Of a DNA stretch of 64,000 bases, positions 9,120 through 64,000 are shown in pieces. The translations under genes were made by a program, and so were the position numbers. The stretch spans positions 62,001 through 126,000 of the forward strand of contig JAIPFF010000002.1 in assembly GCA_021736785.1 (NCBI GenBank), written 5' to 3'. The stretch is from Thiohalocapsa sp. GTDB lineage: Bacteria; Pseudomonadota; Gammaproteobacteria; Chromatiales; Chromatiaceae. The notes under the pieces were generated by a model. The model searched no databases, was not told where the DNA came from, and was given only the letters and a program-made list of their open reading frames with translations. The stretch's first letter is position 1. The number at the start of each line of letters is the position of its first letter.

Positions 9120-9204
9120 ATACGAAGCTTGCGCAAGGACAGGCGCCGAGCAGGCTCTACCGCGGGGAGTCGGACGCGGTTGCCCGCTTTGGCGATCGCC
9201 CTGC

Positions 9205-10997: not shown

Positions 10998-11163
10998 CGC
11001 TGATTCGTTACCCCGTGGGTAAGTCGGTGCCGATGCGGCGCCGGGCCGCCTGGCGGGAAGGTTTCCGGGCCCACCTGGCTTTCGCCGGCCCGACCCCGAA
11101 TAATAGCGAAACCCCGATCGACCGACATCCCGGATTCTCGCAGCGAACGCCCCGCCGACGTCA

Positions 11164-13170
<2,007 letters not shown>

Positions 13171-13195
13171 CGGCGGCGTCAATGGGCGCACCAGC

Positions 13196-17234: not shown

Positions 17235-17317
17235 CGCCGCGTCGCGGACGCACCGCGCATGCCCGGCGACGATCGGGGCCAAGGCGGCTCGACCAACTAC
17301 TGATGGCGCTCGCCGAT

Positions 17318-17424
17318 GCCCGGCGCGTAATGCGCCGGGCGCCTGTCTGATGCCGGCCCCGCGGCCGGCAACAATAGCGGGGTCTTTGTTCGGCAGGGGC
17401 TCGGGGCCGGCTCATTCGGCCCCG
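17318..17424. terminator. Three GC-rich hairpins between convergent genes
   Basis: Three perfect inverted repeats follow each other: a 9-bp stem at 17318-17340 (GCCCGGCGC, loop GTAAT), a 7-bp stem at 17352-17369 and an 8-bp stem at 17402-17424. They lie between the ends of cydC and the convergent hydrolase gene. None has a T run, so they may act as Rho-dependent or transcript-stabilising structures. Confidence 0.45.
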
Positions 17425-17496
17425 GCCCGCACTCGTCCGCGGCCGGCAAGCCACCCGCCCGCAGGCGCCTTGCTTGCCTGCGGCCGCTGAGCGCGC

Positions 17497-47615: not shown

Positions 47616-47690
47616 ATCGAATAGGAGGCGAGGATAACCCCGCCGTCCGGCCACACCACCGGGCATACGGTTCCGCGCCACGGCGGTTCA
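47616..47690 (-). mobile_element. Remnant of a group II intron (domains V and VI)
   Basis: On the minus strand, GTGAACCGCCGTGG...CCCGGTGGTGTGG resembles the domain V hairpin of bacterial group II introns (lower helix ACCGCCG/CGGTGGT, upper helix closed by GGAACC). It is followed by a GGCGGGG/CCTCGCC hairpin and CCTATTCGAT, which fits domain VI with its bulged A and the intron 3' end at 47616. Several base pairs are mismatched, and no reverse transcriptase gene lies upstream, so the element is decayed. Confidence 0.45.
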
Positions 47691-48336
47691 CGCAAGACTA
47701 TTGAAGCCGGAGGTGAAGAAGCTGACCCAGCGCCGGAGCTTCCAAGAAAGGACTGCTATGGCTCTCCTGATGGAGCGCCCCTCCCGGAGCGCAACAGCGC
47801 CTTGAGGCTGGACTTGAGCCATTGTGTCGACTACTCCGGCACCTTCAGGCGTACGTTGTATTTCCGTTGACAGACGGTGTCGCCGAAAAAGCTGCACTTG
47901 CAGGGCCGATCCGCCGCGCTCTTCCCCCGGTTGACCCGCGAGCTTCACGCGCGTCTCCAGGCGAAGTGTCATCGAGGCCCGGACCCGCTCTCCGGCGCAC
48001 CGGCTGCTGACAGAGGCGCCACTATCGTCGGCATAGAGGCAAGAGCGGGACATCGTCGCTCCCGCTCTCCCTCCAAGTCGCTGACAAGAACGTTGACCAG
48101 CAGTGGTCACAGTCGACCACCTTGCGGAATACTGCCAACCATAACACCCGACGTTCTGAAAGCGTCGGGCAAGGATCATGGAGCACTCAAGCCGCATATT
48201 CCATTCCGGCGTACAGACCATTCCTGTCCCGAGCATTGCCTTAACCCCGGCGCGTCCAACACCAACTGCCCCATGGGTACGATCACTTCCCCGATCTTCT
48301 ATGCTGAGGACAGGGCTGGGCAACTGCTCCGACGCG
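47691..48336. other. Gap between intron remnant and defence island
   Basis: Open frames here on both strands (for example minus 47688-48323) have no recognisable domain, no ribosome site and a composition that looks non-coding. Because it directly precedes the domain V-like element, it may be decayed intron sequence, but I found no domain I motif or reverse transcriptase fragment. Confidence 0.35.
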
Positions 48337-49578
48337 TCATGTCACCGCCTGCAGCGTGACTTGAGACCCGTTTACCAGAAGCCCCACGAACACCTTCGGA
48401 ACTGCCGACGATACATGGGCCCGGAAGTCCCCGATACTCTCCGAGATGATCCCAGGGTCCCAAGTGTCGGTGATCAGGACTACTGCGCGCGTGGGTCCAT
48501 TCGGGCGACAACGCGAATCGCCACATCTGACAAGATGCGCGCGAACTTCGCGCAGCACATCCTTCAGGCCGACCCGCCGACGTCTGGGGCCACGGGCTAT
48601 CGCAACGAGAATCTCCCGGCATTCCCCGGTCGCGTCTGACCAAGATGGTATGATATTGATCCTAGCCGACGAACCGACCATCGAATCACGCCCCCACTGC
48701 CCCCCTTCGTCCACGATCGAATCGTAGACATCATCTAAACTGCCAACCTCGCGAACAACTTCGTAAAGACGCCCAGCCACCGAAGCAACTTCGTTCTTCA
48801 ACTCGTCATCGGCTTCCGAGTCCTTCAGGATTTCATCGAACACCCTCTTTACGTGCATCCTATTCTCCGTGTCAGCTAATCCAGCCACCTCAAACGCCAA
48901 CTCCATGTAGGCAGATACCGGGCGACTCCCGTAATGCTCTGTTACCAGCCAGGGAAAGAGACCATGGCGACTCAGATAGCGCCCGATCGACCCCCGAATC
49001 CTCTGACGGTCGTCGTGAGATAATTGCTCGACGTTGCCTTCCAGCAAACCTCTCCATTGATCCTGGAGCAGGTAATAAAGCCCATTGAGCTCTTCGCCCA
49101 CCACCGACGCCTTACCGGTGAATCTCCGAAACGCGGCGAATGAATCAAATACTTTCAAACGACCAAATGGTTCTCGGATTTCGCTGTCACCCAGGGTATG
49201 CTCTTGGTACTCCACCGAGAGCAAGCGAAAACTGGCGTCCGTCGGCGCGAAAGCACGATACAACCGCAAAAGCTCGCCCCAACTCAGTCGTTGGGTGCTT
49301 GGTTCGCCGAGCGGCTGGCCGAAAGCCTTGAGATGCGGCCAGAAGCAACGCCCCATATGCTCCAAGTCACGCAGCCTAAAGGCGCACTGCAGCAACCTGT
49401 CCAGGGCATAGCCGACGCTGAAGCCGGACGACTCTCCGTCAACACCGAGCTCTTTCGGTAAGAATTCGGCGCCTTTAGAATCGAAAAGCTCGGTATTGGC
49501 AACAATCAAACGGTACCAAACCTCCGCCTCCGCTTGAAAGCGTTCAATGTCTTTGGCGACTTGATTGGCTCTAGCCAT
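48337..49578 (-). CDS. Unrecognised protein, last gene of the defence operon
   Basis: A 413-residue soluble protein that I cannot assign. The first two thirds look helical (RFQAEAEVWYRLIVANTELF, GYALDRLLQCAFRLRDLEHM). The C-terminal part is alpha/beta (REILVAIARGPRRRR, TRAVVLITDTWDPGIISE, KVFVGLLVNGSQ), a pattern like a small Rossmann or toprim-like core but without a diagnostic motif. Its ATG overlaps the preceding gene by 8 nt, so it belongs to the operon. The region is visibly less GC-rich than the chromosome left of 47600. Confidence 0.8.
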   Translation of the reverse strand: MARANQVAKDIERFQAEAEVWYRLIVANTELFDSKGAEFLPKELGVDGESSGFSVGYALDRLLQCAFRLRDLEHMGRCFWPHLKAFGQPLGEPSTQRLSWGELLRLYRAFAPTDASFRLLSVEYQEHTLGDSEIREPFGRLKVFDSFAAFRRFTGKASVVGEELNGLYYLLQDQWRGLLEGNVEQLSHDDRQRIRGSIGRYLSRHGLFPWLVTEHYGSRPVSAYMELAFEVAGLADTENRMHVKRVFDEILKDSEADDELKNEVASVAGRLYEVVREVGSLDDVYDSIVDEGGQWGRDSMVGSSARINIIPSWSDATGECREILVAIARGPRRRRVGLKDVLREVRAHLVRCGDSRCRPNGPTRAVVLITDTWDPGIISESIGDFRAHVSSAVPKVFVGLLVNGSQVTLQAVT

Positions 49579-50122
49579 GGAGACCGAATCGCTTTCGCAG
49601 TGCAGAAATCTTCATCATCAGAGGCCCTGACTTGGATCTCAGTTTGCCTTTGGGGAGATTGTTCTTCTCTGCTTTGATAGCAAATAGCGAGAGCTCTCCC
49701 GCCTCCGCGCGCTCCTCGATGACATCGAGCAACTCCGCACACTTTTCACCGACCGACTTGGATACGGACCGAGGTTCATGCCGACGGCCGCGGTGAAAAT
49801 GAAAACACGTGATCATGACTCTACGATCGGTGCTAAAAGTGATCTTGATACCGCGGCCATCTAACCGATGGATTCGACGAGCATGTCGCTGCTCCTCTGC
49901 TTCGTATTCGATGACAGCTCTCGCATAAGCATCGTATGAAGCGTGCTTGTACTCCTGTTCCGTCATGGGCGCCGGATGTTTCAAAATCTCAACCCAGCAG
50001 GCTTCATCATTGCGCCGCCGCTTGTCGAGATGATCGGCCAGATTGCCGGCGCTCCATTTTGGAGAAACTTCCGTGCTCACGATGTAGCGGTCACGCACTG
50101 AACTCAAGCGTAGCTCTACCAT
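49571..50122 (-). CDS. Unrecognised small basic protein in the defence operon
   Basis: A 183-residue basic protein, MVELRLSSVRDRYIVSTEV onward. A C-terminal segment (KITFSTDRRVMITCFHFHRG) resembles the beta-strand core of small RNase toxins, with a His/Arg cluster, but the match is weak. ATG 50122 gives a 32-nt overlap with the upstream gene; the frame is open to 50236. It overlaps the last gene by 8 nt. Confidence 0.7.
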   Translation of the reverse strand: MVELRLSSVRDRYIVSTEVSPKWSAGNLADHLDKRRRNDEACWVEILKHPAPMTEQEYKHASYDAYARAVIEYEAEEQRHARRIHRLDGRGIKITFSTDRRVMITCFHFHRGRRHEPRSVSKSVGEKCAELLDVIEERAEAGELSLFAIKAEKNNLPKGKLRSKSGPLMMKISALRKRFGLHG

Positions 50123-50963
50123 CTGCGAGCAACTGCTCAAGCTCGTGTATAGTGCGCATCGCCTCGTCCCGCCCGATGATGTTGATGTTCGCAAGGTCGG
50201 AGTGCGTCCCCTTTTCAACGTCGGCCATGAATCCATGGCCTGAACGAACGGCTCCCACCTCAGTGATCAAGTATCGATCGTGAAAGTATTTGTCCGGCGC
50301 CTTGATCCATTCAAGGCAAACATTCGTATTCAAGGCCCTGAATTCACGGTCATACACACGATGGATGGCACGTGTTTCCATCGCTGTAGCAACCCGCAAG
50401 CGGCGCACGGACGTCTCGCGAATGGCCTTGAACAACTCCACCAACACGGCGTTCTCGGCAAACCGGAAAAACTGATCAACAATAGTTACGCAATCACTTA
50501 GTATCAGAAGGGGAAGAACGCCCCCAACAATGCATTTCGGGTCAGTTCTGTCCACGGATATAGAGGCAGGAACATTCCATTCGCCGCACCCGTCGTTGAT
50601 CCGGTCAATATCGATTCTGTCCTCACCAATCCCATTAGATACCATACACGAGAACTGTCGGATATTCCGTTGCTCTTCGGTCCAATTCTGCCAGCAGTCT
50701 GCAGCGACACCCTGCCTATCTTTGGTTAACAGGAACTCCGCGCTCGATTTCGACCGACCGAGCTTGTTCAGATAATTTTTGACCGATTGCTTTCTAATTG
50801 TCGTGAGATCTGACTCCTTGACATGAGTCATTGCCTCCTTGGCCCAGGACCTGATCTCTGCCGAGATATACCGCCCTTTCTCGAACCCGAAGTGTTGCTT
50901 GACGAGGCTGTAGTACTCGATGTCCGCCATGCAGCGCGGGTCAAAGGCAACCTCCTTGTACAT
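50091..50963 (-). CDS. HDRY-motif protein, possible PLD-like effector
   Basis: A 290-residue protein paired with the AAA ATPase: its ATG shares a base with the ATPase stop (TGATG). The N-terminal half is helical and charged. The C-terminal half has VLVELFKAIRETSVRRLRVA, then CLEWIKAPDKYFHDRYLIT and AVRSGHGFMADVE. An HDRY strand followed by a Gly-rich turn resembles degenerate phospholipase D-like domains in which Lys of HxK is changed to Arg. Nuclease or sensor function is inference only. Confidence 0.75.
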   Translation of the reverse strand: MYKEVAFDPRCMADIEYYSLVKQHFGFEKGRYISAEIRSWAKEAMTHVKESDLTTIRKQSVKNYLNKLGRSKSSAEFLLTKDRQGVAADCWQNWTEEQRNIRQFSCMVSNGIGEDRIDIDRINDGCGEWNVPASISVDRTDPKCIVGGVLPLLILSDCVTIVDQFFRFAENAVLVELFKAIRETSVRRLRVATAMETRAIHRVYDREFRALNTNVCLEWIKAPDKYFHDRYLITEVGAVRSGHGFMADVEKGTHSDLANINIIGRDEAMRTIHELEQLLADGRATLEFSA

Positions 50964-52813
50964 CAGAACAGTTCCTCATCCCGTTCATCGAAGAAGCCGT
51001 TAGGCCATTCATCGACGAAATCGCCATCAGAATCGATCCGTAATCGAGTGAAACGCGTGCCTTCTGGTGAGGGCTGGACATACTGAACCGAGACGTGTTC
51101 TTTCGTTAGTGCCTGCTCGGGCAACGCGTCGCTGACTGTCGTCTCACTGCTCCGAATCCGGCGCAAGAGCCGAAGCAACAAATGCTCGCTGTGGGTTTCC
51201 AGCAGCAACAGCTTATTGTGCTTAAGGGCATACCTCGCGAAGAGATCAGCCAACTCTACTTGAACCGCCGGGTGGATGTGCAGCTCCGGCTGCTCGATGG
51301 CGATAACGCCCGATTTTTGCGTAATCGCCAACACCACCACAGGGAAGACCTGCGAGATACCGACTCCGATGTCCTGCGGCATGACCGAGAGCCCGGTTTC
51401 ATCCTCCAGAAGGCCGACGCGCGTCCGAATAGGCAAGTTCTCGATCGCCTCCTTGAGCAGCAACTGGTCGTCCATGTCCATCTCACGATCCAGCAAGGTC
51501 AAGGCCGCTTCGTTGACCCCAAGTTCGCGGTAACGCTGGACGTCGAGCTGGTAGCCGGTCTTGAGGCACCGCTCACCGAGCCAATAATTGATCTCACGGA
51601 CAGCGGCGTCCGAGGCCGCGTGGATATACTCCCAGGCCGCCAACCCCTTGGCCCAGCGCGATCGATCCGGTGTGATCTGCGGCTGCAGGTTTCTGGGGGG
51701 CAGATCGCGGATGGGTCCAATGTAGAAAACGTCATCCAACCAACTTTGAAGAAGGCTGACACCGCCAGCGACGAGGCTTGAGATCAGGGACTCGGCGAGC
51801 AACTTCGTTGACGAGAAAACGAGCTCGGTTGCGGCCTCGGCATCGTCTCCGGCTATCCAGTCGGCCTTGTCCACCCAAACTGACTCGTCGAACCGTATTC
51901 CCCTGGTCAGATTCGGCAGGGCATCCGGCTGATCCTGGACGCCGATATAAATCAGCTCTTTCTCTTTTGCGAGGTTTCCAGCCTCTGACTCCAGCCGCTG
52001 TCGCAACTCGGCTGCCCTCCGGGAGGGTCGGCTGCGCAACTCGGCGTGGAGCTTGTCGAAAAGTTGTCGATTTCGGTGAACGCCGCTTTCGATCAACTCT
52101 GCGAGCTCGTCCAACGACCGATTGGCGTATGGTTGCTGTGCGTTCAGCAGCTCACCAAGACCAGCACCATACGCCTCCCGTTCCCCCAGACTGGGTTGGA
52201 ACACCTGGGCCAATCGCTCTTGCAGGCTCTCTTCGTCCGAGCCATTGGCAAACACGGGATGGGACAAATCCAGCGCATCGAAATAGACCTGTTTCTGATC
52301 GGTTGTACAGGTAAGACGGACAAAGCGCCCGCCGTTTAGGGAAATGTCCAGCGTCTCGGCGAAAGGGGCATTGAGGAGCTCACTCCAGCGGATGGAGATG
52401 GTCACCGACAAATCATTGACGGCATCCAGCCACTCATCAGGCAAGAAAGAAGCCCCCGTATCCAATGCCGCCTGCTCAAGCCCCTCCCGCTCATGATCCG
52501 TCAGGTAACCCGGCAACTCCTCGCCGCCTTCCAGTGCGTAAGCCACCGAGATCGTAATCGCCTCATCGAGGTCGCGTTGATGGATAAGATTTCGAAATCC
52601 GCCCAGATCCAGCCATTCCCCGCCAAGCGTGGTGGTATCCGGGTCGTAGTTGCCGTGGACCAATACCTCTCGCAGGTATATCAGCGACTGCAGAACAGTG
52701 CTCTTGCCTGCGCTGTTCGGGCCAAAAAGCAGCGTGATCGGTGCCAAGTCGATGGATTGCGCTTCGGCGCCGATCGCCTTGAAGTTCTTCAGTTGGAGTC
52801 GTGTCGGCCTCAC
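50963..52813 (-). CDS. AAA/ABC-type ATPase with DUF3696 C-terminus
   Basis: A 616-residue SMC/OLD-like ATPase. Walker A GPNSAGKST lies at residues 31-39, Walker B with an adjacent Glu in VIAIEQPELHIHP, a D-loop type ETHSEHLLLRLLRR, and the DUF3696 end IDSDGDFVDEWPNGFFDER. The middle is helical and charged, as in defence ATPases. The start is GTG (52813), 27 nt after the Hsp70-like stop. Proteins of this kind pair with a nuclease or toxin in defence systems; here the next gene is the candidate partner. Confidence 0.88.
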   Translation of the reverse strand: MRPTRLQLKNFKAIGAEAQSIDLAPITLLFGPNSAGKSTVLQSLIYLREVLVHGNYDPDTTTLGGEWLDLGGFRNLIHQRDLDEAITISVAYALEGGEELPGYLTDHEREGLEQAALDTGASFLPDEWLDAVNDLSVTISIRWSELLNAPFAETLDISLNGGRFVRLTCTTDQKQVYFDALDLSHPVFANGSDEESLQERLAQVFQPSLGEREAYGAGLGELLNAQQPYANRSLDELAELIESGVHRNRQLFDKLHAELRSRPSRRAAELRQRLESEAGNLAKEKELIYIGVQDQPDALPNLTRGIRFDESVWVDKADWIAGDDAEAATELVFSSTKLLAESLISSLVAGGVSLLQSWLDDVFYIGPIRDLPPRNLQPQITPDRSRWAKGLAAWEYIHAASDAAVREINYWLGERCLKTGYQLDVQRYRELGVNEAALTLLDREMDMDDQLLLKEAIENLPIRTRVGLLEDETGLSVMPQDIGVGISQVFPVVVLAITQKSGVIAIEQPELHIHPAVQVELADLFARYALKHNKLLLLETHSEHLLLRLLRRIRSSETTVSDALPEQALTKEHVSVQYVQPSPEGTRFTRLRIDSDGDFVDEWPNGFFDERDEELF

Positions 52814-52840
52814 TTCTTGTTCTTCCCTCGACGCACGCGC

Positions 52841-54637
52841 TTACCACTGATATTTCGGGTCGTCATATACCTGTCTGCCCGTGACGCCACCGGCGATAGC
52901 AGTGGCCGTACCACCCTGCTTGATCAGCTTCTTGCGCGCGCCGCCGAGGGAAACGGCAATGCGCGGATAATCCAGTTCCAGCTCGCTGTGCGCATCTTCA
53001 AGCCAGGTCGGGAACCTTTTCGCGGGTACCACGCGAATCTGTTTGCCGCGCACGGTGATCTGGCGGTCGGCCAGTTCACGGACCATCGGCAGCGATGCCC
53101 CACCACCGGTAAGGGCGACGGTCAGATAAGGAATCCTCTGCGAGGCACCGATCAGGTCGATCCAATCCTTGTTGATCGATTCGAGAATGCCGACCATCTT
53201 TTGATCGAGTGCGTTCTTGAAGTCGGTAACGCCAGGGGTTGCCAGAAACTGGTCGAGCTTAATAGTCACCTCGTAGCCGTCGTGGGAGATGGTGGTCTCT
53301 CCCTGGTCGAACAGTTCTTCTTTGAACTCGCGAATGTTCCGTTGCAGGTACCACTGGAAACGGTCTGGAATGCCCTGCTCCGGCGCGATACCGCAGTACT
53401 GCAGTATCAGCCCCATCAAGGCCAGATCGAGGTGATTGCCCGCCTCCGTGACGCCATCGACGCTGCCCGCCGCCTCGATCGCTATGCTGATGTCTCTTTC
53501 CGGATCGACATGCATGCGGTACACGCTGAAATCGATCGTACCAGCGCCGACATCGATCACCATCACTACCATGTGGTGGGGTTTTTCGCTGTAGTAGTTC
53601 AACAGCGTCCCGGCGACGCCCAACGGCTCGGTGATACCCTCGCGCACAAACTTGTACTCCCTGCGTCCCCCTTCGCGGAGCAGTCTGACCGCCTGGACAA
53701 AGCGCTGTAGCGGAAGCCCCTTGCGGAGATCCGCGAAGAAGGTATCCGCGAGCACCTGGGCTTCACCGAGGTACTTGCGTAAGCGGTACTGGACTTCCTT
53801 GAAATCTGCGCCTGACAGGCAAGGCATGGCGAATCGGCGATTGAGATTGCGCGGATAACCGCCGGGGGGCTGCTCCAGGTGCTCCAGAGCCTTGTTGACC
53901 GACCAGGTCAGGAAGGTCAGGTACGCGAGAATGATGTCCGCATAGGTGACCGATATGTCAGTCGGGTTGAACTTCCCGTCCACCTCCGCATCGACCTGTC
54001 CAAGCGACAGCCAGTGCTTGATGTTGTCCATCACCTGGCGTGAGCCGTCCGGGGCGTCGCGACCACAATACTCCTCGGCTTCAGCGCCGAACCAGAGCTT
54101 GCCATCGTCATCGATGTAAACCGCGGAATGCAGCTTGTAGTCTTCGATATCGTCGCCGTACTCACCCAAATGCAGTACGGTGATGGTCTCGTCATCGTAA
54201 TCCGATGCGCCATCGAGCACGAGCGTGGCCTTCGACATGGCGGTACCGAAGTCGAGACACAGGCGAATGTTCTCGGGCCCATCCGGCAACTCCAGAACAC
54301 TCGCATCGATATCCAGCCTGGGTTCGGTCACGACCGGCTTTGTCACCGGGGCCGGTCCAGGAGCCGGTTCCGGCTCGGGCACCGGCTCTGGCTCCGGTAC
54401 CGGTTCGGGCTCATAAACCGGAAGCGGTGGTGGCGTCGGAACCCTGGGTGCGGAACCGGCCGGGGCGGCTACGCCAGGAGAAGGCATTGCGCCGCCCTCC
54501 AGTACGCCCACCGCCATCCGCAGCGCCGCGTATTCATCGTCGGTCAGCCTGCCCTGGAGCAGGTAGCCGCCACCTTCCTGGGGCTCCATGCGCGCAAACA
54601 GGTTCTTCAGCAGAATCTTGGCTTCGATCACTTCCAT
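52841..54637 (-). CDS. Hsp70/actin-fold ATPase with proline-glutamate linker
   Basis: A 598-residue protein of the Hsp70/actin ATPase fold: phosphate-1 motif RLCLDFGTAMSKATL (about 125-139), phosphate-2 MVIDVGAGTIDFSV and adenosine motif ALTGGGASLPMVREL. A small N-terminal helical domain (1-50) is joined to the ATPase by a Pro/Glu repeat at about 72-98. The substrate-binding domain of DnaK is absent, so it is not a housekeeping chaperone. It follows the IF2_N protein by 6 nt, pointing to a functional pair. Confidence 0.88.
   Translation of the reverse strand: MEVIEAKILLKNLFARMEPQEGGGYLLQGRLTDDEYAALRMAVGVLEGGAMPSPGVAAPAGSAPRVPTPPPLPVYEPEPVPEPEPVPEPEPAPGPAPVTKPVVTEPRLDIDASVLELPDGPENIRLCLDFGTAMSKATLVLDGASDYDDETITVLHLGEYGDDIEDYKLHSAVYIDDDGKLWFGAEAEEYCGRDAPDGSRQVMDNIKHWLSLGQVDAEVDGKFNPTDISVTYADIILAYLTFLTWSVNKALEHLEQPPGGYPRNLNRRFAMPCLSGADFKEVQYRLRKYLGEAQVLADTFFADLRKGLPLQRFVQAVRLLREGGRREYKFVREGITEPLGVAGTLLNYYSEKPHHMVVMVIDVGAGTIDFSVYRMHVDPERDISIAIEAAGSVDGVTEAGNHLDLALMGLILQYCGIAPEQGIPDRFQWYLQRNIREFKEELFDQGETTISHDGYEVTIKLDQFLATPGVTDFKNALDQKMVGILESINKDWIDLIGASQRIPYLTVALTGGGASLPMVRELADRQITVRGKQIRVVPAKRFPTWLEDAHSELELDYPRIAVSLGGARKKLIKQGGTATAIAGGVTGRQVYDDPKYQW
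54345..54415. repeat. Repeat encoding the Pro-Glu linker
   Basis: Near-identical short units (CCGGTTCCGGCTCGGGCAC type, on the plus strand) are repeated in tandem and encode the EPEPVPEPEPVPEPEP stretch of the Hsp70-like protein. Unit number may vary between strains. Confidence 0.7.
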
Positions 54638-54643
54638 GTTTCG

Positions 54644-56254
54644 TTACTCCTCGGGCGCGACGATGGGCTTGACCAGCATGCGGGTCTTACCGGCAAAGGT
54701 CTTCTCGACACCGTCGCGAACGACGCGAACATGCCGCACCCCGGAGCGGTGCCCGCCATCCATGTCGTGCAGCCGCCGGTTGTATTCCATCCGCTCGCTC
54801 TTCAACCCAGCGGGCTTGAGCTGCCGCATGCGTGACAGGCTACGGATCACCTGCGCCGTTTCCCTGTAATCACTGGCCGCCTTGGCGACCGTTTTCGCCA
54901 ACACCGGGTTTAGCGGCTGAAGAATAGGCAGTACCGCACTGCGCAGCTTCTCCATGACAGACTGGCTTTCTTCCACCTTGAGCAGCAACTCGCCGATCTT
55001 TTCGTCCTCGGAATTGCGGATACGCTGTGCCTTCTGCTCCTTGTCGCCCTCACCGCCGCCCCCTTTGCACCACCATTCCGCCACTGTCGGATCCAGATCC
55101 TTGGCATCGGCGAAATGACGCGTGATCGCGCTGGTCATCTGCGCGCGTGAACTGAAGGCTGCACGCAGCACCGCCATCATGTCGTTGTCGAACTTGTCCT
55201 GACGGGCCAGCACCAGCGACGCCTCCAGCAGGGCGTGTCTCACCTCGCCGAGGGTTTCAGACCGTTCGAGATAACGTCCCCAAAGACCGGCTCCTAAAGC
55301 ATGTCTGCCCTCTACGAGGATGGCGTAGAGCTCGGGGTACATCGCCATGGAGAAGCGCAGCTCGATGCAGCGCCGCAGGATGGCGAGCAGCGCATCCACG
55401 CCTTCGACGACGATCGAGAAATCGACGTCGTCCAAGCCATGCACGTACACTGATTTCATGAGCCGGGATAGCTTGCCACCCGGATCCTCTCCGAGGTCGC
55501 CCCGCCAGGGGCCGACAATGTCAGCCAGGACTGTGGCGAGACGCCTTGCCCGGCGATAGCGCGTCTCGGTCTTGCTGACGTCCTTCAAGAGCCCCGCCTG
55601 TTCAGACAATGCCGACAGCCAATCGGCCAGCGACGTCTCGCGCGCAAGATTTGCTGCAAGCAGTTCACGACGGGCATTGTCCGCCGTGTCAATCACAAGG
55701 GCCTCGCGGTAGGAATACGCCCTTGTCCATGGGTCGCTGCAGTGGCTGATGACCGTGGCGGCGTAGGACTTGGCGTCACCGTCTTCCAACGTCTCGATGG
55801 ATTCCGGTTCACCACTGAAGATCTCATCGGCGCGGTCGAAGATGACCTTCTCGCGGCCACGCGCAACTGCTGCCAGGCGTCCGAGGATGCCGGCGGACAG
55901 TAGCTCATGCTCGTCGGTTTCCTGATTCAGCTCGACCACCTTCTCGACGACCGAATCCAGGTTGCTGTCCTTGATCAGCGCCTGGATCTTTCGCTCGGCC
56001 ATGGCCTGCGTGAGTAGTTGATTCAACTCGCGCAGGTCGGCAGAGGACCCGATGTCGCTGAGGGTGACCTCCTTGCCGGGTTCGTCCTTGCTCTCATTAG
56101 CACGCATATGCTGGAGTAACTTCAGTTGGTCGTTGCCGGAGATCAGGTCATCTTCGCCGCTGACTGCGATGCCCGCCTCTTTGAGCTGGGCCATGAGGCG
56201 CTCGATGGGGATACCTTGGTCGCGGGCAAGTTTCTTAGCTGGGGTTCCGTCCAC
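54644..56254 (-). CDS. Helical protein with IF2_N-like N-terminal domain
   Basis: A 536-residue protein. The first 50 residues (KKLARDQGIPIERLMAQLKE then AGIAVSGEDDLISGNDQ) match the IF2_N module otherwise found in translation initiation factor 2. The rest is almost entirely helical, with no nuclease or ATPase motif, and a WWCKGGGGEGD loop near residue 400. GTG start at 56254 after AAGGAG. It is tightly coupled to the Hsp70-like gene (6 nt) and could act as its co-factor. Confidence 0.8.
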   Translation of the reverse strand: MDGTPAKKLARDQGIPIERLMAQLKEAGIAVSGEDDLISGNDQLKLLQHMRANESKDEPGKEVTLSDIGSSADLRELNQLLTQAMAERKIQALIKDSNLDSVVEKVVELNQETDEHELLSAGILGRLAAVARGREKVIFDRADEIFSGEPESIETLEDGDAKSYAATVISHCSDPWTRAYSYREALVIDTADNARRELLAANLARETSLADWLSALSEQAGLLKDVSKTETRYRRARRLATVLADIVGPWRGDLGEDPGGKLSRLMKSVYVHGLDDVDFSIVVEGVDALLAILRRCIELRFSMAMYPELYAILVEGRHALGAGLWGRYLERSETLGEVRHALLEASLVLARQDKFDNDMMAVLRAAFSSRAQMTSAITRHFADAKDLDPTVAEWWCKGGGGEGDKEQKAQRIRNSEDEKIGELLLKVEESQSVMEKLRSAVLPILQPLNPVLAKTVAKAASDYRETAQVIRSLSRMRQLKPAGLKSERMEYNRRLHDMDGGHRSGVRHVRVVRDGVEKTFAGKTRMLVKPIVAPEE

Positions 56255-56273
56255 TATTGTTCTTCTCCTTTGG

Positions 56274-57398
56274 TCATAGTTGGCCAGAGAACGCTCTCTG
56301 ACTCAGCGAGTCAAAAAGGGGCTCGGCCAAGAACTCACGATGCCCGCGGACCAAGCATTGGTTCTGATTGACGATGCTCGCAAACTTTTCTTGGAGGGCT
56401 TTGCCTGGAATGGGTATCTGGACATTCTCGAACAAGGACTTCTTTAGTATTGGAAGCGTCGTTTTTATTGCATTCTTGGTGATAAATACGGGGAATTCTT
56501 TAAACAGATAGTACCCGTACAGATCAACCACGCGTTCATTCCATTCCACAACGTTTATTTGCTGGTTGAATGCCGACGGTTGCGATGCAATCGCGACTTT
56601 TCCGATCGTTGCCCCGATACAACAAGCCATGAGGCTCCCAGACCGACACGTGCGACTTTGCGATGCGCCTTCTGGCGTTAACCAACGCTTTACGTTAGTC
56701 AAGTTGTCATCTAGGTCTCCCGGCGTCACGAAAGGCACCTCTTGACCGTACATCCCTTCTAGCTGACTCGAAGGAGTCGAACCGGTTATCACTTTCCCCA
56801 GTTTCTTGATCGGTAGCACGTCCCACTGCTTCGGATTCGTTACCGGATCACCAAAGAGATCCAGAAAGACCGAGCGGAGGAACTGATCGGCGAGTTCGAT
56901 GGCTTGCTGGCGTTTGCGGCGGATGGCATCGGCCTTGTCGAGGATGGCGGCGATGCGTTTTTGTTCGGGCAGCGGCAGAAACGGGATCGGAATGTTCTCT
57001 GCATCTCCCTTGGTTAGTTTCGCTCGGGTTGCCCCCTTGATGAAAGGTGTAACGTCATACCTTTCCAGGACACGAAACAAGAACCTCAGGTCAAGCCCAT
57101 CTTTAGGCTTCAATACATGAGCATGGTTGTTTACCCAATATTTACCTTCCGCGACATACGCGATCGCCTTATAAGGATCACCGAAATGCCCACCATCCTC
57201 CGCTAGAAGCACCAAAGGTTCATCGAACAAGAAATCGTTGATCGTGCCTTGTTTTCCATTGGCCCCGTAATACGCATAGTCGCCCTCAACGCGATCGGAC
57301 GCTTTTACCGGCTTACGCCTGCTGTCAAGAAAATCAACCACTTCGCCAAGCGGTCGGGTCGCCACCTGTGATTCCAAATGCTGAGCACGGATCATCAC
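56274..57398 (-). CDS. hsdS: Type I restriction specificity subunit HsdS
   Basis: DNA-recognition subunit. The 374-residue protein has two target recognition domains (about 1-130 and 190-330). Between them is the conserved helical spacer [20 protein letters not shown] followed by [20 protein letters not shown] second, shorter helix lies near the C-terminus ([16 protein letters not shown]). The ORF starts GTG-ATG over the hsdM stop; the ATG at 57395 may be the real start. The target sequence cannot be predicted. Confidence 0.93.
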
Positions 57399-58969
57399 AG
57401 CATCCCACCCAACTCATTCATGTCCTTCATAATCTCCGCCTCCAGCGCCTTCATCCGCGCAAGGATCTCTCTCGGCGGGTCGTATGCCTCCTCGTCATAG
57501 GCCACTTCCTTGTAGCGGTTGATCGACAGGTCGTACTTGTTCGCGGCAATCTCGGCCCGGCTCACCCAAAAGCTGGGTGCGGTGCGGTCGTTGGAGTCCG
57601 TCTCCGCAACGGCCTTGTCGCGCTGCTGCCAAGCCGCCAGGACCTTGGGCATGTCACCGGCAAAGCTGAGCGGGCGGCCCTGCTCGTCGCGATAGAGCAC
57701 GTCGCGCTTGTCGTCCAGGGAGTAACCATCGTCCTGCACGTCGTAGAACCAGACGTGATCGGTCTGGCCACCCTTGGTGAATATCAGGATGGCGGTGGCC
57801 ACCCCGGCGTAGGGCTTGAACACGCCACTGGGCAGGTTGATGACCGCTTCGAGTTGGTTGTCGTCCACCAGCAGTGCGCGTAGCGCCTGATGGGCCTTTG
57901 AAGAGCCGAACAGCACGCCCTGCGGCACGATAGTGGCGCTGCGCCCGCCGGTTTTGAGCATGCGCAGGATCTGGGCGACGAACAGCAGCTCGGTTTTTTT
58001 GGTCTTGACCAGGCGCAGGATCGGCGGGTTGACCGTATCCTCGTCCAGCGCGCCCTTGAACGGCGGATTGGCGAGCACGACGTCGAACGCATCCTTCTCT
58101 TTGACCGGGAAACGGTCGGCGAAGCTCTGCGCCAGGGTGTCCTGGTAGTGGATGTCCGGGTCTTCGACGCCGTGCATGTACAGGTTCATCGCGGCGATGC
58201 GCAGCATGGTGTTGTCGAAGTCGAAGCCGTGGAACATCGCGGTCTTGATGTGGCTCCACTGGGCCTGATCGAGCAGGTCACCGGTGTAGGTGACGGCCTC
58301 GGCGGGCTTGCCATCCGGCCCCTCGATCTCTTCGCGGATCACGCCGTCTTCGGAGCTGTAGGTCTCCAACAGGTGCTCCATGCAGTTGACCAGGAAGCCC
58401 GCGGTACCACAGGCCGGGTCGGCGACCTTCTCCTCCGGCTTTGGGTCGAGCATGCGCACCATCAGCTTGATGATGTGGCGCGGCGTGCGGAACTGGCCAT
58501 TGATGCCCGCGGTGGTGAGCTTGCTCAGCAGGTACTCGTACAGGTCGCCCTTGGTGTCGCCGGATTCCAGTGGCAACTCGTTGATCATCTGGATGGCCTT
58601 GACCAGCAGGCTGGGCTTTTCGATGACCAGGCGGGCGTCCTTCATGTAGTCGCCGAAGCGGATATCTCCGGTGTGCCCGCGGAAGTGCTTGAACACCTCG
58701 TCACGGACCAGGGCGAGCAGCCGGTCCGGGTCGCCCTCGTGCACGAATTGGCTCCAGCGCAGGTGCTGCTGGTCGCCGCCGAAGCGCGGCGTGAATCCCT
58801 TGCCGGTACGGGCCTGGCGCTTTTCGTCGCGGGTCTCGTTGATATCCAGCAGACGGGCGAACATCAGAAAGGTGATCTGCTCGATGACGGTGAGCGGATT
58901 GGCAATGCCGCCCTGCCAGAATTCGAGCCAGAGTCTGTCGATTTTGTTCTTGAGTTGGCCGGTGATCAT
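57395..58969 (-). CDS. hsdM: Type I restriction N6-adenine methyltransferase HsdM
   Basis: Modification subunit. The 524-residue protein has an N-terminal HsdM helical domain ([13 protein letters not shown]), the SAM-binding motif [13 protein letters not shown] and the catalytic NPPF motif in [15 protein letters not shown], typical of N6-adenine methylation. The stop overlaps the hsdS start; hsdR ends 27 nt upstream. Confidence 0.96.
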
Positions 58970-58996
58970 TCTGTTTGTCTTTGTTCCTGCTGCGAT

Positions 58997-61900
58997 TTAC
59001 TGAGTCTCTGATTCTGTCGGCTGTGGCTGGTGCCCAAAGCTCTGGACGATCTCCAGCAGCCTGTCTATCTGATCGTCGCTGTCGAATACGCTGTCCGGGT
59101 CACCGAGCGAGGCGAACGGCATCTCGTAGAGGCTTTCCAGCTCGATGGCGCCGCTACGGGCGATCTGGCGCTTGAGCAGGCCTAGAAACTGCACCTGCTT
59201 TGCCTTCAGGCTCGGGTAGGCTTGCACGAACTCCGCGAAGCGCTGGTTAACGGCGTCTTCATCCATGCCGATCACGGCGCGCAGGATCTGCTCCATGGGC
59301 GCGGCGGTGTCGTAGAAGCCTTTCAAGGTGTTCAGGTCCACGTCCGGATGATTGGTGTGGACAAGCGCATTGAGCGCTTCCAGCTCTTTCTCGGTCACCG
59401 GTTCAGCTTCGCGGATCTTGGCAATCACCGGATCCTTGTCGAACAGCTCATTGAGCGCCTGCTCCACCTTGATCCGGTAGGCTTTCAGATCCACGGTGGC
59501 GAGGTAGGTCGTCTGCGTCTCGCGCATTTCATGCCCATCTTCGATGTCGATGATGGGCGGGTCGTAGGGGCTTTCAGCGCCAGTTACCCGGAACTTGAGA
59601 ATGTCGCGCAACACGACTCGCGCCTGCTCGATCTCTTCCAGCGACGCTTTCGTCCACCAGTCAGGCTCGCGCGCCTGCCTGATCTCCGTCGCCTTCGCTT
59701 GCACCTGGTTCAGGTTCATCTGCAACTGGTGAAGCTGGCCGATCGCTTCACCGACATAATCATCGAAGCGCGCGGACTTCTTGAGCTTCTCGTGCTGGAT
59801 CTTGGTGACCAGCAGATCCCATTGGTAGGCTTCCGAATGGCCGCGGATATCGACCCACTGCATCAGCGGGGCGATCTCGGTTTCCAGCAGCACCACGGTG
59901 TTGGCGGCGAACTGTCTGACCACGCCCAGTTCGCTCATCCGTTGCTTGACCTTCCACTTGTCCCGCACCGCGAGCGCTTTCTCATCGAGGCTGTTGACGG
60001 CCTTGTTTATCCACTGGGCCAGTTCATCGAAAAAATCGACTTCCGCCGCATTGAGGGCCTCTTTCGCCAGCGCCAGCCGCGCTTCGAACAGGCGCTGCAT
60101 GGTGCACTTGGACTGGCTCACCGTGACATCGCGCGGCTTGAGTCCGTGGTACTCGACCACGCCCCAGTGATCGAAGGTCTGGAAGTGGGTCTTGTGCTTA
60201 CCCGGACCGAACAGGTCCTTGCACAGCCGTGTCCCGCGCCCGACCATCTGCCAGAATTTCACTGGCGACTTGACGGGCCGGGCGAAGACCAGATTGACCA
60301 CCGCAGGGACGTCGATGCCGGTGTCGAGCATGTCCACCGAGATAGCGATGGTGAGCCGGTCGTTGCTGCCCTCGCCCTTGAAATCGTCGATCAGGTCTTC
60401 GGCGCGCGGGTCGTAGTTGTCGATGACCTGGCAGAACTTGCCCGCGTACTGCGGAAACATCTCGTCGAACAGCTCTTCGAGCAGCTTGGCGTGACGATGG
60501 TTGCGGGCGAAGACGATGGTCTTCCCCAGGGTCTGCCCATCCGCCTGGCGGATGCCGTGGTCCATCAGGTTCTGCAGGATCTTGCGGTTGGTGTCCTTGT
60601 TGTAGATGGCCCGATCGATTTCCTGGCTGTCGAAGTCCAGCGCATTGGGGTCGATACCCTTGTCTTCGAGCTCGGCGACCTGTTCCGGGGTCAGGGCGTG
60701 CCCCTTGATACCCTCGCGCAGGAACTTGGTGGTGTGCTTCACGACCTGGTACGGAACGAGATAGCCCTCTTCGATGGCGCGTTCGAGGTCGTAGTTCGAG
60801 GTCGGCTGCTTCAAATCGCAATCGAATAGCCGGCATGTCGAACGGCTGACCATTTCGACTGGCGTGGCGGTCAGGCCGAGTTGCAGCGCGTCGAAGTAGC
60901 GGAAAAGGTCGCCGTAGATGTTGTAGATACTGCGATGCGACTCGTCGGCGATCACCAGGTTGAAGAAGCCCGGATCGAACTTGCTGTAGATCTTGAGCAT
61001 CGCCGGATAGGTGGCGACGAAGACCTGGTTGGCGGTGTCATCGACACTCTTGCTGCTGAGCACCGTCACTGGCGCGCTCAGAAACTCCGAGTAGGCATTC
61101 TTGGCCTGCTTGCGCAGTTCCTTGCGGTCGCATAGGAACAGAACGCGCTTGGCCCAGCCGGCCTGCATGCAGACATCGGACAGCGCGATCGCCAGACGCG
61201 TTTTCCCGGTACCCGTCGCCTGCACCGCCAGCGCCTTGCGCTGTTTGGACTCGTAGCGCTCGCAGATGCGCTTGAGCGCTTCGTGCTGGTAGAGCCGATC
61301 GGTCAGGATCTCGGGCTTTGGGGAGACGGTTGAGAACGGATGGCGTTCCGCGCGCTGCCGAACCTGGTGCTGCAGGCTGCTCTTTGAGTAGAAATCGTAC
61401 AGACGACGCGGCGGGTAGCCTTGCGCAGGGTGATCGTCCCACATCCAGATGTCGTAGCCGTTGGTGTAAAAGATCACCGGACGCTGTCCGTACATCTTCT
61501 CCAAGCCATCCGCATAGTGCCGCGCCTGATGGCGGCCTTTCTCCGCATCAACCGCGGTCTTCTTCGCTTCTACGACCGCCAACGGCTTGCCGTTGGCGTC
61601 CCAGAGGACATAGTCTGCGAAGCCCTCGCCGGTTTTCGTCGGCTGGTGCAGTACCTTCTCTTCCTGGGTCACCTCGTCGGTATCGGCACCCTCGACGCCA
61701 GCGTCCCAGCCTCGCCCCGCGAGGAGCGTATCGATCAAGCGGTGACGGGTCGCCTGCTCGCTGAATTGCAGATGATCGGCGACGTTCTGCGCTTTGACCT
61801 GCAGCGCCGTCAGTTCCTGGGCGGTCTTTTGAAGCCGAGCCGCTTTTTCTCTTTCCTGTTCCAGGTCGCTGAGCAGCGCCTGCATCTGGGCTTCCTGCTT

Positions 61901-62395
61901 GGCGAACTGCTCCAGCAGTGCCTTGCGTTCTTTCTTGTACTGGTTTTTGGGCGAGACGGGGGGCTGCGGCGACTGGAAGTCACGCAGCGTCGACGCGTCG
62001 CCGTTCGCATAGGTGGCGAACAGCCAGCGCCCAAGATCCCAGGCTTCCCGGACTAACCAGAGCGCGCTGTTGTCGGAGACCTTGTCGCCGTGGGCTGCCT
62101 TGTTGCCGTGGATGCGGATGGCGTGGAGCTTCTCCACGACCACGGTGGGAGTCACGGACTTGAATGCGTCGTTGCTGAGCAGATCCATGAAGTTGGACAT
62201 CGGCGCACGCGGCAAGCCTGCCTGCTGATATACAATGCTGACGCAGCGCTCGGCGAACGCGCGCAGCTTTACTACCGCGCTCTCCGGGTCACCATGGGCG
62301 TACTGCTCGGCAAAACCACAGAGAGACGCCAGCTCAGGCCACCGGGTCCGCAGATGCTCGAAGTTCTTAGATTGCATAATTTCGTTTACGCTCAT
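58997..62395 (-). CDS. hsdR: Type I restriction endonuclease HsdR with DUF4145 domain
   Basis: Translocase/nuclease subunit. The 1132-residue protein starts with a DUF4145 HEPN-like domain (residues 1-130; motif RIHGNKAAHG), a coiled segment (QEAQMQALLSDLEQEREKAA), a nuclease domain with FADYVLWDANGKPLAVVEAK (D...ExK), and a helicase core (Walker A QATGTGKTRLA, DESH in VIADESHRS, QMVGRGTRL). It is first behind a sigma-54 promoter. An internal ATG six codons in (62377) is a possible start, because the promoter's predicted RNA start is only four bases before the first ATG. Confidence 0.95.
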   Translation of the reverse strand: MSVNEIMQSKNFEHLRTRWPELASLCGFAEQYAHGDPESAVVKLRAFAERCVSIVYQQAGLPRAPMSNFMDLLSNDAFKSVTPTVVVEKLHAIRIHGNKAAHGDKVSDNSALWLVREAWDLGRWLFATYANGDASTLRDFQSPQPPVSPKNQYKKERKALLEQFAKQEAQMQALLSDLEQEREKAARLQKTAQELTALQVKAQNVADHLQFSEQATRHRLIDTLLAGRGWDAGVEGADTDEVTQEEKVLHQPTKTGEGFADYVLWDANGKPLAVVEAKKTAVDAEKGRHQARHYADGLEKMYGQRPVIFYTNGYDIWMWDDHPAQGYPPRRLYDFYSKSSLQHQVRQRAERHPFSTVSPKPEILTDRLYQHEALKRICERYESKQRKALAVQATGTGKTRLAIALSDVCMQAGWAKRVLFLCDRKELRKQAKNAYSEFLSAPVTVLSSKSVDDTANQVFVATYPAMLKIYSKFDPGFFNLVIADESHRSIYNIYGDLFRYFDALQLGLTATPVEMVSRSTCRLFDCDLKQPTSNYDLERAIEEGYLVPYQVVKHTTKFLREGIKGHALTPEQVAELEDKGIDPNALDFDSQEIDRAIYNKDTNRKILQNLMDHGIRQADGQTLGKTIVFARNHRHAKLLEELFDEMFPQYAGKFCQVIDNYDPRAEDLIDDFKGEGSNDRLTIAISVDMLDTGIDVPAVVNLVFARPVKSPVKFWQMVGRGTRLCKDLFGPGKHKTHFQTFDHWGVVEYHGLKPRDVTVSQSKCTMQRLFEARLALAKEALNAAEVDFFDELAQWINKAVNSLDEKALAVRDKWKVKQRMSELGVVRQFAANTVVLLETEIAPLMQWVDIRGHSEAYQWDLLVTKIQHEKLKKSARFDDYVGEAIGQLHQLQMNLNQVQAKATEIRQAREPDWWTKASLEEIEQARVVLRDILKFRVTGAESPYDPPIIDIEDGHEMRETQTTYLATVDLKAYRIKVEQALNELFDKDPVIAKIREAEPVTEKELEALNALVHTNHPDVDLNTLKGFYDTAAPMEQILRAVIGMDEDAVNQRFAEFVQAYPSLKAKQVQFLGLLKRQIARSGAIELESLYEMPFASLGDPDSVFDSDDQIDRLLEIVQSFGHQPQPTESETQ

Positions 62396-62409
62396 GCGGG
62401 CCTAACTAA

Positions 62410-62425
62410 GCGAAGACCATGCCAA
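62410..62425 (-). promoter_or_regulatory. Sigma-54 promoter of the hsdR operon
   Basis: Minus strand: TTGGCATGGTCTTCGCT. It matches YTGGCACGrNNNTTGCW at all but two fixed positions, with exact GG-GC spacing. It occupies most of the 33-nt gap between the CARF activator stop (62429) and hsdR. The predicted start is near 62398, so the transcript would have a very short leader. Confidence 0.75.
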
Positions 62426-62428
62426 GTG

Positions 62429-63934
62429 CTATTCGATGGCGTACTTCTCCAGGCGCTTCGAGAAGGTCTGATAGTTGGGAATGCCAAGCAAAGCCGCAGC
62501 TTCCTTCTTCCGCTTGCCCGATTCCAACCACGCCTTTTCGACATAATGTCGCTCGACAGAATCCAATAAGGCATTTAAATCAAAACCTTGGCCAATCTCA
62601 CGCCCCAAGACACCGTCACGTCCGTCGCGACTGGCCAGGTTGGCCAGCAAGCACTCTCGGGCCTCCTCGCCGGAAATCATCTGCCCCTCTGACCAGACAG
62701 CCAACCGTCTTAGCGTGTTCAGCAACTCGCGGACGTTTCCCGGCCAAGTATGCCCCAAGAGAATCTTCTGTCCCTCTAAAGAAAGTTTTTTATCTTTGAA
62801 CCCCGGCTCGTCTTGGCTCTCGTTGTTCACCTTCGCCAACAAGTGGTTGATCAACAACTTGACGTCCTCGCGGCGATGCCGCAGTGGTGGCAATCGGATA
62901 ACAGCCACAGCCAGCCGGTAGAACAAGTCTTCACGAAACCGCCCCTCGGAAATCTCATCCAACAACGAACGGTTGGTCGCCGCGATGATGCGCACGCTCA
63001 CTTTCTTCGGAAACTTGGCACCTATCGGCCAGACCTCGCCATCCTCGAGCACCCGTAAGAAGCGGACTTGGGCGGCCGTGGGTAATTCACCCAACTCATC
63101 GAGAAACAGGGTGCCGCCGTCTGCCGCCTCGAACTTCCCTACTTGATTGGATGCCGCACCGGAGAAGGCGCCTTTGACGTGTCCGAAAAGAATGGATTCG
63201 ATGAGTTCATGCGGGATCGCGCCACAGTTGATCGGCACGAACGGCTCGTCTGCCCGCAGACTGGCGGCGTGAATAGCCTTGGCGAACAATTCCTTGCCCG
63301 TGCCAGATTCACCCTCGAGCAGTACGGGAACTGATCGAGGCGCCACCTTGCTGGCCATGTAAATGACCTTCTTCATCACTTCGCTGTGGTGAAGGATATC
63401 CTTAAACTGTGCAGCCACCGGCGGCAGTTCAGGCGCGGCACCTTCCAGCCTCGCATCCCTGTTCCTAATGTAGGAGGGCAACCATTCCGCTGTAAGCGAT
63501 ATCGGCAGGTTTACATCCCGAACGCCCCGCTGAAGGCTTGACTCCACCAAAGTGGCCGGGAATTCCGTTTCCGACAGGATGATCCAAGTCGTGGCCATTG
63601 CAGGCGTGCCCGGGCTGATGTGGAACGTCAGACGCAGTCCGTCTGGGTAATCGGCCTGCAAAGCCTTCAACGTCTTGCGACAGGCGGGGAATATCTCTTC
63701 GAAGTCAGTAGGGCTTACCAGCTTGTGATAGTGAACTTGGGCGGCATGACCGGTTCTCTGTTCCAGCCAGGACAGGAAAGGCACCACGTTCTGCGTCGGG
63801 TAGTTTGTCAGGAGGTGGACAGCATCGAAAGGTCTTGCAGCCAGGACATTCGCAACCGGGCCATCCCCATTTGTCTCGTTACGAGATGCCTTGAGGTCGG
63901 TTGCACCGAGCCAGCAGACAAGTACATCTAGCAT
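62429..63934 (-). CDS. CARF-like domain sigma-54 activator (RtcR-like)
   Basis: A 501-residue enhancer-binding protein. Residues 1-155 form a CARF-like sensor: VLVCWLGATDL start, AVHLLTNYP strand and the ligand loop LTFHISPGTPAM at about 102-113. The AAA+ domain follows: Walker A GESGTGKE, a GAFSGA form of the sigma-54 loop, Walker B GTLFLDELGE, sensor ATNRSL. A Fis-type helix-turn-helix ends it (KEAAALLGIPNYQTFSKRL). No receiver domain. ATG 63934, with CTGGGG before it, is preferred over GTG 63973. Confidence 0.88.
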   Translation of the reverse strand: MLDVLVCWLGATDLKASRNETNGDGPVANVLAARPFDAVHLLTNYPTQNVVPFLSWLEQRTGHAAQVHYHKLVSPTDFEEIFPACRKTLKALQADYPDGLRLTFHISPGTPAMATTWIILSETEFPATLVESSLQRGVRDVNLPISLTAEWLPSYIRNRDARLEGAAPELPPVAAQFKDILHHSEVMKKVIYMASKVAPRSVPVLLEGESGTGKELFAKAIHAASLRADEPFVPINCGAIPHELIESILFGHVKGAFSGAASNQVGKFEAADGGTLFLDELGELPTAAQVRFLRVLEDGEVWPIGAKFPKKVSVRIIAATNRSLLDEISEGRFREDLFYRLAVAVIRLPPLRHRREDVKLLINHLLAKVNNESQDEPGFKDKKLSLEGQKILLGHTWPGNVRELLNTLRRLAVWSEGQMISGEEARECLLANLASRDGRDGVLGREIGQGFDLNALLDSVERHYVEKAWLESGKRKKEAAALLGIPNYQTFSKRLEKYAIE

Positions 63935-63986
63935 ACGAAGCCCCAGGTAACATTCGTTATTTCTGAGTATCACACATTACCTTGCG

Positions 63987-64000
63987 CTTGTTGTCACAAG
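63987..64000. repeat. Inverted repeat at window end
   Basis: CTTGTTGTCACAAG has 5-bp half sites (CTTGT/ACAAG) around four bases. It lies upstream of the CARF activator gene and could be an operator, but the window ends here. Confidence 0.3.

Follow-up and report, generated by a model that had tools for sequence, protein, structure and literature searches.

A predicted CARF-family sigma-54 activator and a conserved promoter-like site ahead of a Type I restriction operon in Thiohalocapsa

Regulators that combine a CARF domain, an AAA+ ATPase and a helix-turn-helix (HTH) were presented in 2014 as a family often tied to restriction-modification (R-M) systems and predicted to act through sigma-54, with activation of R-M by ligands made upon infection as the proposed role (PMC4012209). 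RtcR-like CARF genes directly followed by Type I R-M genes have also been described in CoCoNuT neighbourhoods (PMC11090510, 2024). In RtcR, the CARF domain represses the AAA+ domain and its removal leads to constitutive activity (PMC9650030). RtcR is bound by 5' tRNA halves ending in a cyclic phosphate and oligomerises (PMC7790460); in vitro, tRNA fragments are not sufficient and oligoadenylates are inactive (PMC9650030). Some published papers deal with intragenic sigma-54 binding in general, and some on Type II R-M genes mention leaderless transcripts. In the literature searched, which excludes most subscription papers, we found no published promoter, operator or enhancer for the CARF-AAA-HTH family and no published sigma-54 control of hsdR (in PMC2725144 and PMC4676750, hsdR appears in host-strain genotypes), and no paper title names the family in connection with intragenic bEBP sites or leaderless R-M.

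We have analysed a stretch of 64,000 nucleotides from Thiohalocapsa sp. (hereafter, the window) that contains such a regulator immediately before a Type I restriction operon. It matches the PADLOC profile PDLC01995 (RtcR_PspF2--CARF_AAA_HTH), which we infer to be the 2014 family; full-length agreement with the profile and a predicted N-terminal CARF fold place it there, and the lack of K122 and R124, a usual feature of the family found in this work and not known to be a published criterion, does not remove it. The window regulator shares the architecture, the genomic partner and the predicted sigma-54 role of the 2014 family, but the available portions of that paper name no promoter, operators or intragenic enhancer, and the putative ligand pocket in the window is charge-reversed. 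It has in common with RtcR, the activator of rtcBA, the CARF-AAA+-HTH layout and, by prediction, sigma-54 activation, but its apparent target is restriction instead of RNA repair and the predicted promoter lies in tandem behind its own gene. A classical RtcR was rejected, as the genome has no PF06956 match and the NF038308 score is 333.4 bits against a cut-off of 650; the only RtcB found lies on another contig (C87), leaving the regulator unlinked to rtcB. The CoCoNuT superoperons share an RtcR-like CARF gene followed by Type I R-M in one direction (PMC11090510), but assignment to them was rejected since neither a McrB-like GTPase nor a YprA-like helicase is among the matches listed for the ten proteins of 47688-63934. 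PspF has the AAA+ fold and the predicted sigma-54 mechanism in common with the window protein but consists of AAA and HTH domains only (PMC4012209). A first-pass annotation had read the locus as a CARF activator facing a sigma-54 promoter, with a second messenger or nucleotide signal that may switch restriction on. Its observation is confirmed and its interpretation partly supported: the predicted CARF fold, the sigma-54 activator and the promoter-like site have support, but it overstated how unexpected the link was, given its precedent in the available text of PMC4012209. The concept of a CARF-family, sigma-54 and R-M connection is thus already known, and what this analysis adds is candidates for the promoter, the operators and the enhancer.

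The regulator and its defence neighbourhood

The regulator (Table 1) ends 33 nt before hsdR on the same strand (gap 62396-62428), as the first-pass annotation had noticed. Its PDLC01995 match (609 bits) joins residues 4-501 to positions 3-481 of a 481-position profile. As in sigma-54 enhancer-binding proteins, it carries a Sigma54_activat AAA+ domain (PF00158, 219.6 bits in a Pfam search), here with the variant contact loop GAFSGA, and it also has a Fis-type HTH. An AlphaFold2 model of the full protein reached a mean pLDDT of 84.3 with a pTM of 0.54, so that domain placement is uncertain; in fold searches its AAA+ part resembles NtrC1, FleQ and PspF. Residues 1-153, modelled together with 34 relatives, gave a pLDDT of 90.8 and a pTM of 0.87. 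The comparison with CARF structures proposed in the first-pass annotation came out in its favour: Foldseek retrieved 17 PDB chains at E<=1e-3, every one a CARF protein or ring nuclease associated with CRISPR (Csm6, Can2, Cad1, SSO1393, Sis0811, Card1 and Cdn1), the best being Csm6 6tug (TMq 0.73), and non-CARF Rossmann folds appear only from rank 20 (E 1.1e-3). By sequence, the CARF profile has no solved relative at E<=1.

Table 1. Features of the regulator, its putative control sites and the downstream operon in the window (AF2, AlphaFold2; PWM, position weight matrix).
Feature	Position	Strand	Basis or remark
CARF-AAA+-Fis regulator, 501 aa	62429..63934	(-)	ATG 63934, TAG 62431-62429
CARF domain, residues 1-153	63476..63934	(-)	predicted fold (AF2 + Foldseek)
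E122-T-E124, K-T-R in relatives; putative ligand pocket, charge reversed	63563..63571	(-)	alignment
GAFSGA sigma-54 contact loop, Thr->Ser variant of GAFTGA	63155..63172	(-)	alignment
Predicted recognition helix 488-497, K493-R494 replacing N-W	62444..62473	(-)	AF2 model + alignment
Sigma-54 -24/-12 candidate site TTGGCATGGTCTTCGCT	62409..62425	(-)	10/12 consensus match; positional conservation
Intragenic operator-like site 1 (AGATAAAAAACTTTCTTT)	62778..62795	(-)	11.5 bits, upstream-trained family PWM
Expected place of intragenic site 2	62758..62775	(-)	family synonymous peak 383-391; degenerate in window
Upstream operator candidate TAAC-GAAT-GTTA	63948..63959	(-)	read by eye
Upstream operator candidate TAAT-GTGT-GATA	63968..63979	(-)	by eye; centre 20 bp from TAAC-GAAT-GTTA
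Further inverted repeat CTTGT-GACA-ACAAG	63987..64000	(-)	by eye; another 20 bp upstream
hsdR, 1132 aa	58997..62395	(-)	PDLC03047 REase_I 857 bits; HSDR_N, EcoEI_R_C
hsdM	57395..58969	(-)	N6_Mtase, HsdM_N; MTase_I 586 bits
hsdS	56274..57398	(-)	Methylase_S
PDC-M61A candidate defence protein	54644..56254	(-)	PDLC04730, 594 bits
PDC-M61B candidate defence protein	52841..54637	(-)	PDLC04731, 632 bits
AAA_15/AAA_21-type ATPase	50963..52813	(-)	profile matches
290-aa protein (U290), final gene of block common with G503	50091..50963	(-)	81% identity, same order in G503

Several normally conserved positions are altered in this copy. In an alignment of 120 regulator rows, which include a few duplicates, residue 122 is Lys in 117 and residue 124 Arg in 98, and Glu occupies each position in two rows, those of the window and of genome G465. 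The GAFTGA loop has Thr at residue 258 in 115 of the rows and Ser in 4; the recognition helix has Asn at 493 in 111 and Trp at 494 in 112; the window protein also carries the change E248I. Because the G465 regulator, 71% identical, has the same Glu pair and its C-terminal piece likewise reads SKRL (the K-R helix), these pocket and helix changes are, to judge from the alignment, inherited and common to both. The G465 gene is split after GAFT onto contigs C163 and C7 (L130, L229), which may reflect either the insertion of an element or a break in the assembly. The K122E and R124E changes could mean another ligand, a protein partner or a loss of gating; with Glu at both positions, the ligands of this predicted CARF domain should not be borrowed from RtcR or Csm6.

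The genome has one RpoN match and, on contig C42 (L135), a second full-length PDLC01995-family member (3400-4914 of the reverse complement), with the site TGGCGCGAGTTCTGCG directly at its stop codon (9/12 consensus positions) and no HsdR match downstream.

Lying on one strand with short gaps, hsdR, hsdM and hsdS form a predicted Type I R-M operon, followed by two candidate defence proteins. The N-terminus of PDC-M61A is weakly IF2_N-like (E=0.0077, under the cut-off). PDC-M61B is possibly actin/Hsp70-like, a guess to be read with its FtsA/MreB-like Pfam matches, which are all sub-threshold; within the order, 6 of 204 genomes contain a match to it. The same operon in the same gene order occurs in genome G503 (contig C46, L228, approximately 4600-17450), with identities of 91% for HsdR, 93% for HsdM, 34% for HsdS, 62% for M61A, 48% for M61B, 89% for the ATPase and 81% for U290. 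The regulator has no match in the 19-kb stretch examined there, some 4.8 kb of which lies upstream of the operon, and the operon can therefore exist without it; a weaker site, GGGCACGGTCTTCGCC (9/12), precedes hsdR in G503.

Among relatives of the regulator, which come from several phyla according to their record titles, the next gene was callable in 72 of 75 loci, and in 36, the window included, it clusters with the window's HsdR, although some calls are out of frame (L092). Of the other next genes, two sets of ten were scanned, and among their products are AAA ATPases, an HmaA-like helicase, a methylase-specificity fusion, TPR and PLD-like proteins and unknowns. The regulator thus seems to stand at the front of defence genes in general, HsdR being its partner in about half of the cases. 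In locus L001, an Abi_2-type abortive-infection gene (2119-3114, plus strand) is divergent from the regulator, with the operator candidates between the two.

A predicted sigma-54 site behind the regulator's stop codon

The sigma-54 consensus used for scoring is TGGCACG-N4-TTGCW, with 12 fixed positions. The site in the gap, TTGGCATGGTCTTCGCT, fits 10 of them, missing two as first annotated; its GG-N10-GC is intact, its 16-mer core lies 4 nt behind the regulator stop and its computed +1 is near 62398. Eleven sites in the 64-kb window, both strands and this one included, score as well, and by itself it is weak promoter evidence; it is the conservation of its position in relatives that settles its status as a predicted promoter.

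Relatives were the best 80 of 287 found in genome contigs plus 6 from viral contigs, a sample biased to close relatives. Of 81 loci (with the window) whose regulator frame was read to a stop, 76 passed a minimum of 480 codons and of 100 nt of downstream DNA; L046, L054, L064 and L109 dropped out for a short open frame and L056 for short downstream DNA. Scoring did not require GG..GC, and GA-type sites therefore count. A site matching at least 10/12 positions lies within -30 to +70 of the regulator stop in 54 of the 76 loci, the window included, and is absent in 22; the same score was reached in 28/3800 dinucleotide shuffles, 3/622 other ORF ends and 21/3723 random stretches. In 46 of the 54, no more than 4 nt (0-4) separate the stop codon from the start of the site. 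With sequences above 80% identity removed and the window not counted, 39 of 53 loci have it. Within the same genus, G574 has TGGCACGGCCTTCGCT before a related hsdR, behind a regulator 46% identical to that of the window.

The reverse approach, in which hsdR relatives were sought irrespective of any regulator in a phylum sample (24/398 genomes) and in the order (20/204), provided 45 loci, less L206 with too little upstream sequence, and allowed A at -12. With the regulator directly upstream (the window being one such locus), 16 of 18 hsdR loci have the site, against 4 of 26 without an adjacent regulator; several of these loci come from genomes already used and some also belong to the second set of 36 loci considered below. 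Both comparisons bear out the earlier claim that a sigma-54 promoter-like site faces the restriction operon. Two of the four, L194 and L199, show by eye the end of a regulator-like frame; L211 and L212 have the site before hsdR and no regulator in the stretch examined.

Within the first 20 nt after the regulator stop, some hsdR-linked loci have TTGA instead of TTGC at -12 (L045, L049, L065, L069, L073, L094, L096, L101 and L113). All six GAFTDA-loop loci that have a site carry TTGA, and three more TTGA loci keep GAFTGA or GSFTGA; loop and promoter variant may therefore change together, as far as these alignments indicate. Family members L117-L122 lie on contigs of a viral collection, and in L118-L120 the regulator is followed by the repeat GTAAA-N4-TTTAC, with a sigma-54-like site that fits 9 to 11 of 12 positions at 80-100 nt downstream.

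The position of the predicted promoter may also bear on how hsdR is translated. In 38 loci, several of them close relatives, that combine a site (A allowed at -12) with the HsdR start M.S.NFE, +1 was computed as 12 nt after the -12 base. An in-frame ATG falls at +1 to +4 in 36 of them, exactly at +3 in 28, whereas the conserved HsdR Met of those 36 lies anywhere from +11 to +42; L066 and L064 are the exceptions, and the regulator frame of L064 is broken. Among loci of a second HsdR family, 4 of 6 have the ATG at +6. In the window, ATG 62395 is the computed +4 and the conserved start Met 62377 is +22. An ATG fixed at the computed transcript start suggests a near-leaderless hsdR mRNA.

That TTGGCATGGTCTTCGCT is a chance match, as its two consensus deviations and the equally good sites elsewhere in the window would allow, appears very improbable to us: besides the conserved position, both deviations recur at the same columns in relatives, with T at the deviating -24 box position in 7 of the 54 sites (window included) and TCGC also in L002, L092, L118, L171 and L174. 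A more serious alternative is that hsdRMS is transcribed mainly by read-through from the regulator promoter, or from an unseen sigma-70 promoter, with the sigma-54 site merely boosting expression. The shared strand, the short gap and the G503 operon without a regulator match in the examined stretch speak for this alternative. We nevertheless find this explanation unlikely, since a site that keeps its position across the family and is rare before hsdR genes lacking the regulator points to a real promoter; additional read-through would be compatible with it.

Operator-like repeats upstream and inside the regulator gene

An exact palindrome, ACAAG-N4-CTTGT, precedes the regulator gene in 13 of 76 loci, against a maximum of 2 in shuffles (the 76-locus sets used for palindromes and PWM differ slightly from the promoter set). 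A PWM grown from these exact palindromes reads nTACAAG-N4-CTTGTAn. Its upstream count of 62/76 is circular, the matrix having been trained there, and the non-circular evidence consists of the exact palindromes and the intragenic sites. The best upstream pair is spaced by 20 bp in 42 of 52 loci with a pair (75 examined). Inside the gene, 61 of 76 loci have a match to the upstream-trained matrix between -390 and -260 from the stop, compared with 3 of 76 in each of the two bins closer to it; of other 120-nt stretches of the regulator genes, 10 of 699 reach the PWM threshold. The best intragenic pair is at 20 bp in 53 of 54 loci with a pair (75 examined); these spacings are not independent, being fixed by protein conservation, and the informative point is their equality with the upstream spacing.

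Codon choice gives a second view of the element. In 61 nonredundant regulators (<85% identity), compared with each locus's own codon use, synonymous conservation peaks at residues 383-391 (z up to 28): GCA encodes residue 388 in 51 of 61 regulators (Ala in 60; z 28.0), AGA or AAA encodes residue 389 in 48 of 60 (z 27.7) and CTT encodes residue 391 in 34 of 61 (z 11.6). All of the top seven-column stretches overlap 383-391, with mean z up to 14.6 and, elsewhere, 4.1 at most among the twelve listed. Ser columns with high z (S107, S225, S487 and others, S385 within the peak) were set aside as a likely two-codon-set artefact. In a further 36 loci, GCA accounts for 27 of 35 codons at Ala388, compared with 284 of 2078 for Ala across the gene, and AGA accounts for 16 of at least 21 at Arg389, compared with 82 of 1473. 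From these codon counts, the intragenic conservation goes beyond that of the protein.

Intragenic site and promoter also go together. Of the 76 loci, 49 have both, 11 neither, 9 the site only and 7 the promoter only (Fisher p 3.5e-4, kinship between loci ignored); the 36 other loci divide into 18, 14, 1 and 3, respectively. From the second intragenic site to the -24 box there are 340-351 bp in 42 of 49 loci. We take the intragenic pair to be a putative enhancer within the gene of the regulator itself, some 345 bp ahead of the predicted promoter.

The window deviates here as well. It keeps intragenic site 1, and the expected place of site 2 holds no PWM site of 6 bits or more; upstream, the family matrix finds poor scores of 9.1 and 7.8 bits at a spacing of 25. 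By eye, TAAY-N4-RTTA-like repeats 20 bp apart seem to replace the family operator in the window and in G465, whose counterpart of TAAC-GAAT-GTTA is TAAT-GGTA-GTTA. The changed operator seems to fit the changed recognition helix, a correspondence that rests on two sequences read by eye. As judged from these comparisons, the window copy is atypical for its family in pocket, recognition helix and operator.

These deviations might instead mean that the window copy is degenerate or rewired, with the basic pocket lost and the regulator either constitutive, silent or under the control of a protein in place of a nucleotide, which the sum of K122E, R124E, GAFSGA, E248I and the helix and operator changes would favour. 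We consider this improbable, since the frame has stayed open, the Glu pair and KR helix recur in G465 and are hence inherited, and a related hsdR and promoter have been retained in the same-genus relative whose regulator is 46% identical. It is still less probable, in our estimation, that the intragenic element is an RNA or translation signal and no enhancer. Its location in coding sequence, and measures that consist of codon choice and motif match alone, leave room for such a role, but the element fits a motif learned upstream only, with the same 20-bp pair spacing, it co-occurs with the sigma-54 site, and its codon choice is not seen in other bEBPs (GCA in 2 of 13 Ala, one gene counted twice).

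A proposed signal-induced restriction switch

The usual view of Type I restriction is that it is permanently active. The reading that we prefer, and think probable, is that the regulator is a CARF-gated sigma-54 enhancer-binding protein that induces hsdRMS and the linked defence genes. Its basis is the domains, the fold match, site and codon conservation and gene order, all drawn from sequence; gating of the window protein would follow from analogy with RtcR. The poor family operator and the Glu pair of the window, the G503 operon, the 22 loci that have no site and the two hsdR loci L211 and L212 weigh against it. The regulator would be made at a low level from its own promoter, its CARF domain holding the AAA+ ring off until a signal arrives. 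Upon binding of the signal to the CARF domain, it would oligomerise on the paired sites and open the RpoN polymerase that presumably waits at the -24/-12 site directly after its stop codon, leading to induction of hsdR, hsdM, hsdS and the defence genes linked to them. The putative enhancer pair lies inside the regulator gene in the majority of relatives examined, about 345 bp before the promoter, with a sister pair at the regulator's start.

A wider reading, which we advance only tentatively, is that of a portable 1.6-kb switch cassette placed before Type I R-M or other defence genes. It would consist of an operator pair, a CARF gene whose AAA+/lid coding part harbours the enhancer pair, and a sigma-54 promoter joined to the stop codon of that gene. 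The hsdR transcript would begin at the start codon or no more than about 3 nt from it. Leaderless hsdR would then be translated when RNA damage, the suspected signal, cripples initiation, and the joint change of pocket, helix and operator in the window lineage would amount to a switch of both signal and wiring. Both the arrangement as a cassette and the probable leaderless start seem to be new.

The proposed switch, with its conserved sigma-54 site and putative internal enhancer, opens signal-induced restriction to direct testing, its promoter, enhancer and sensor being small and movable, and the codon-conserved intragenic element offers a sequence mark for finding such cassettes.
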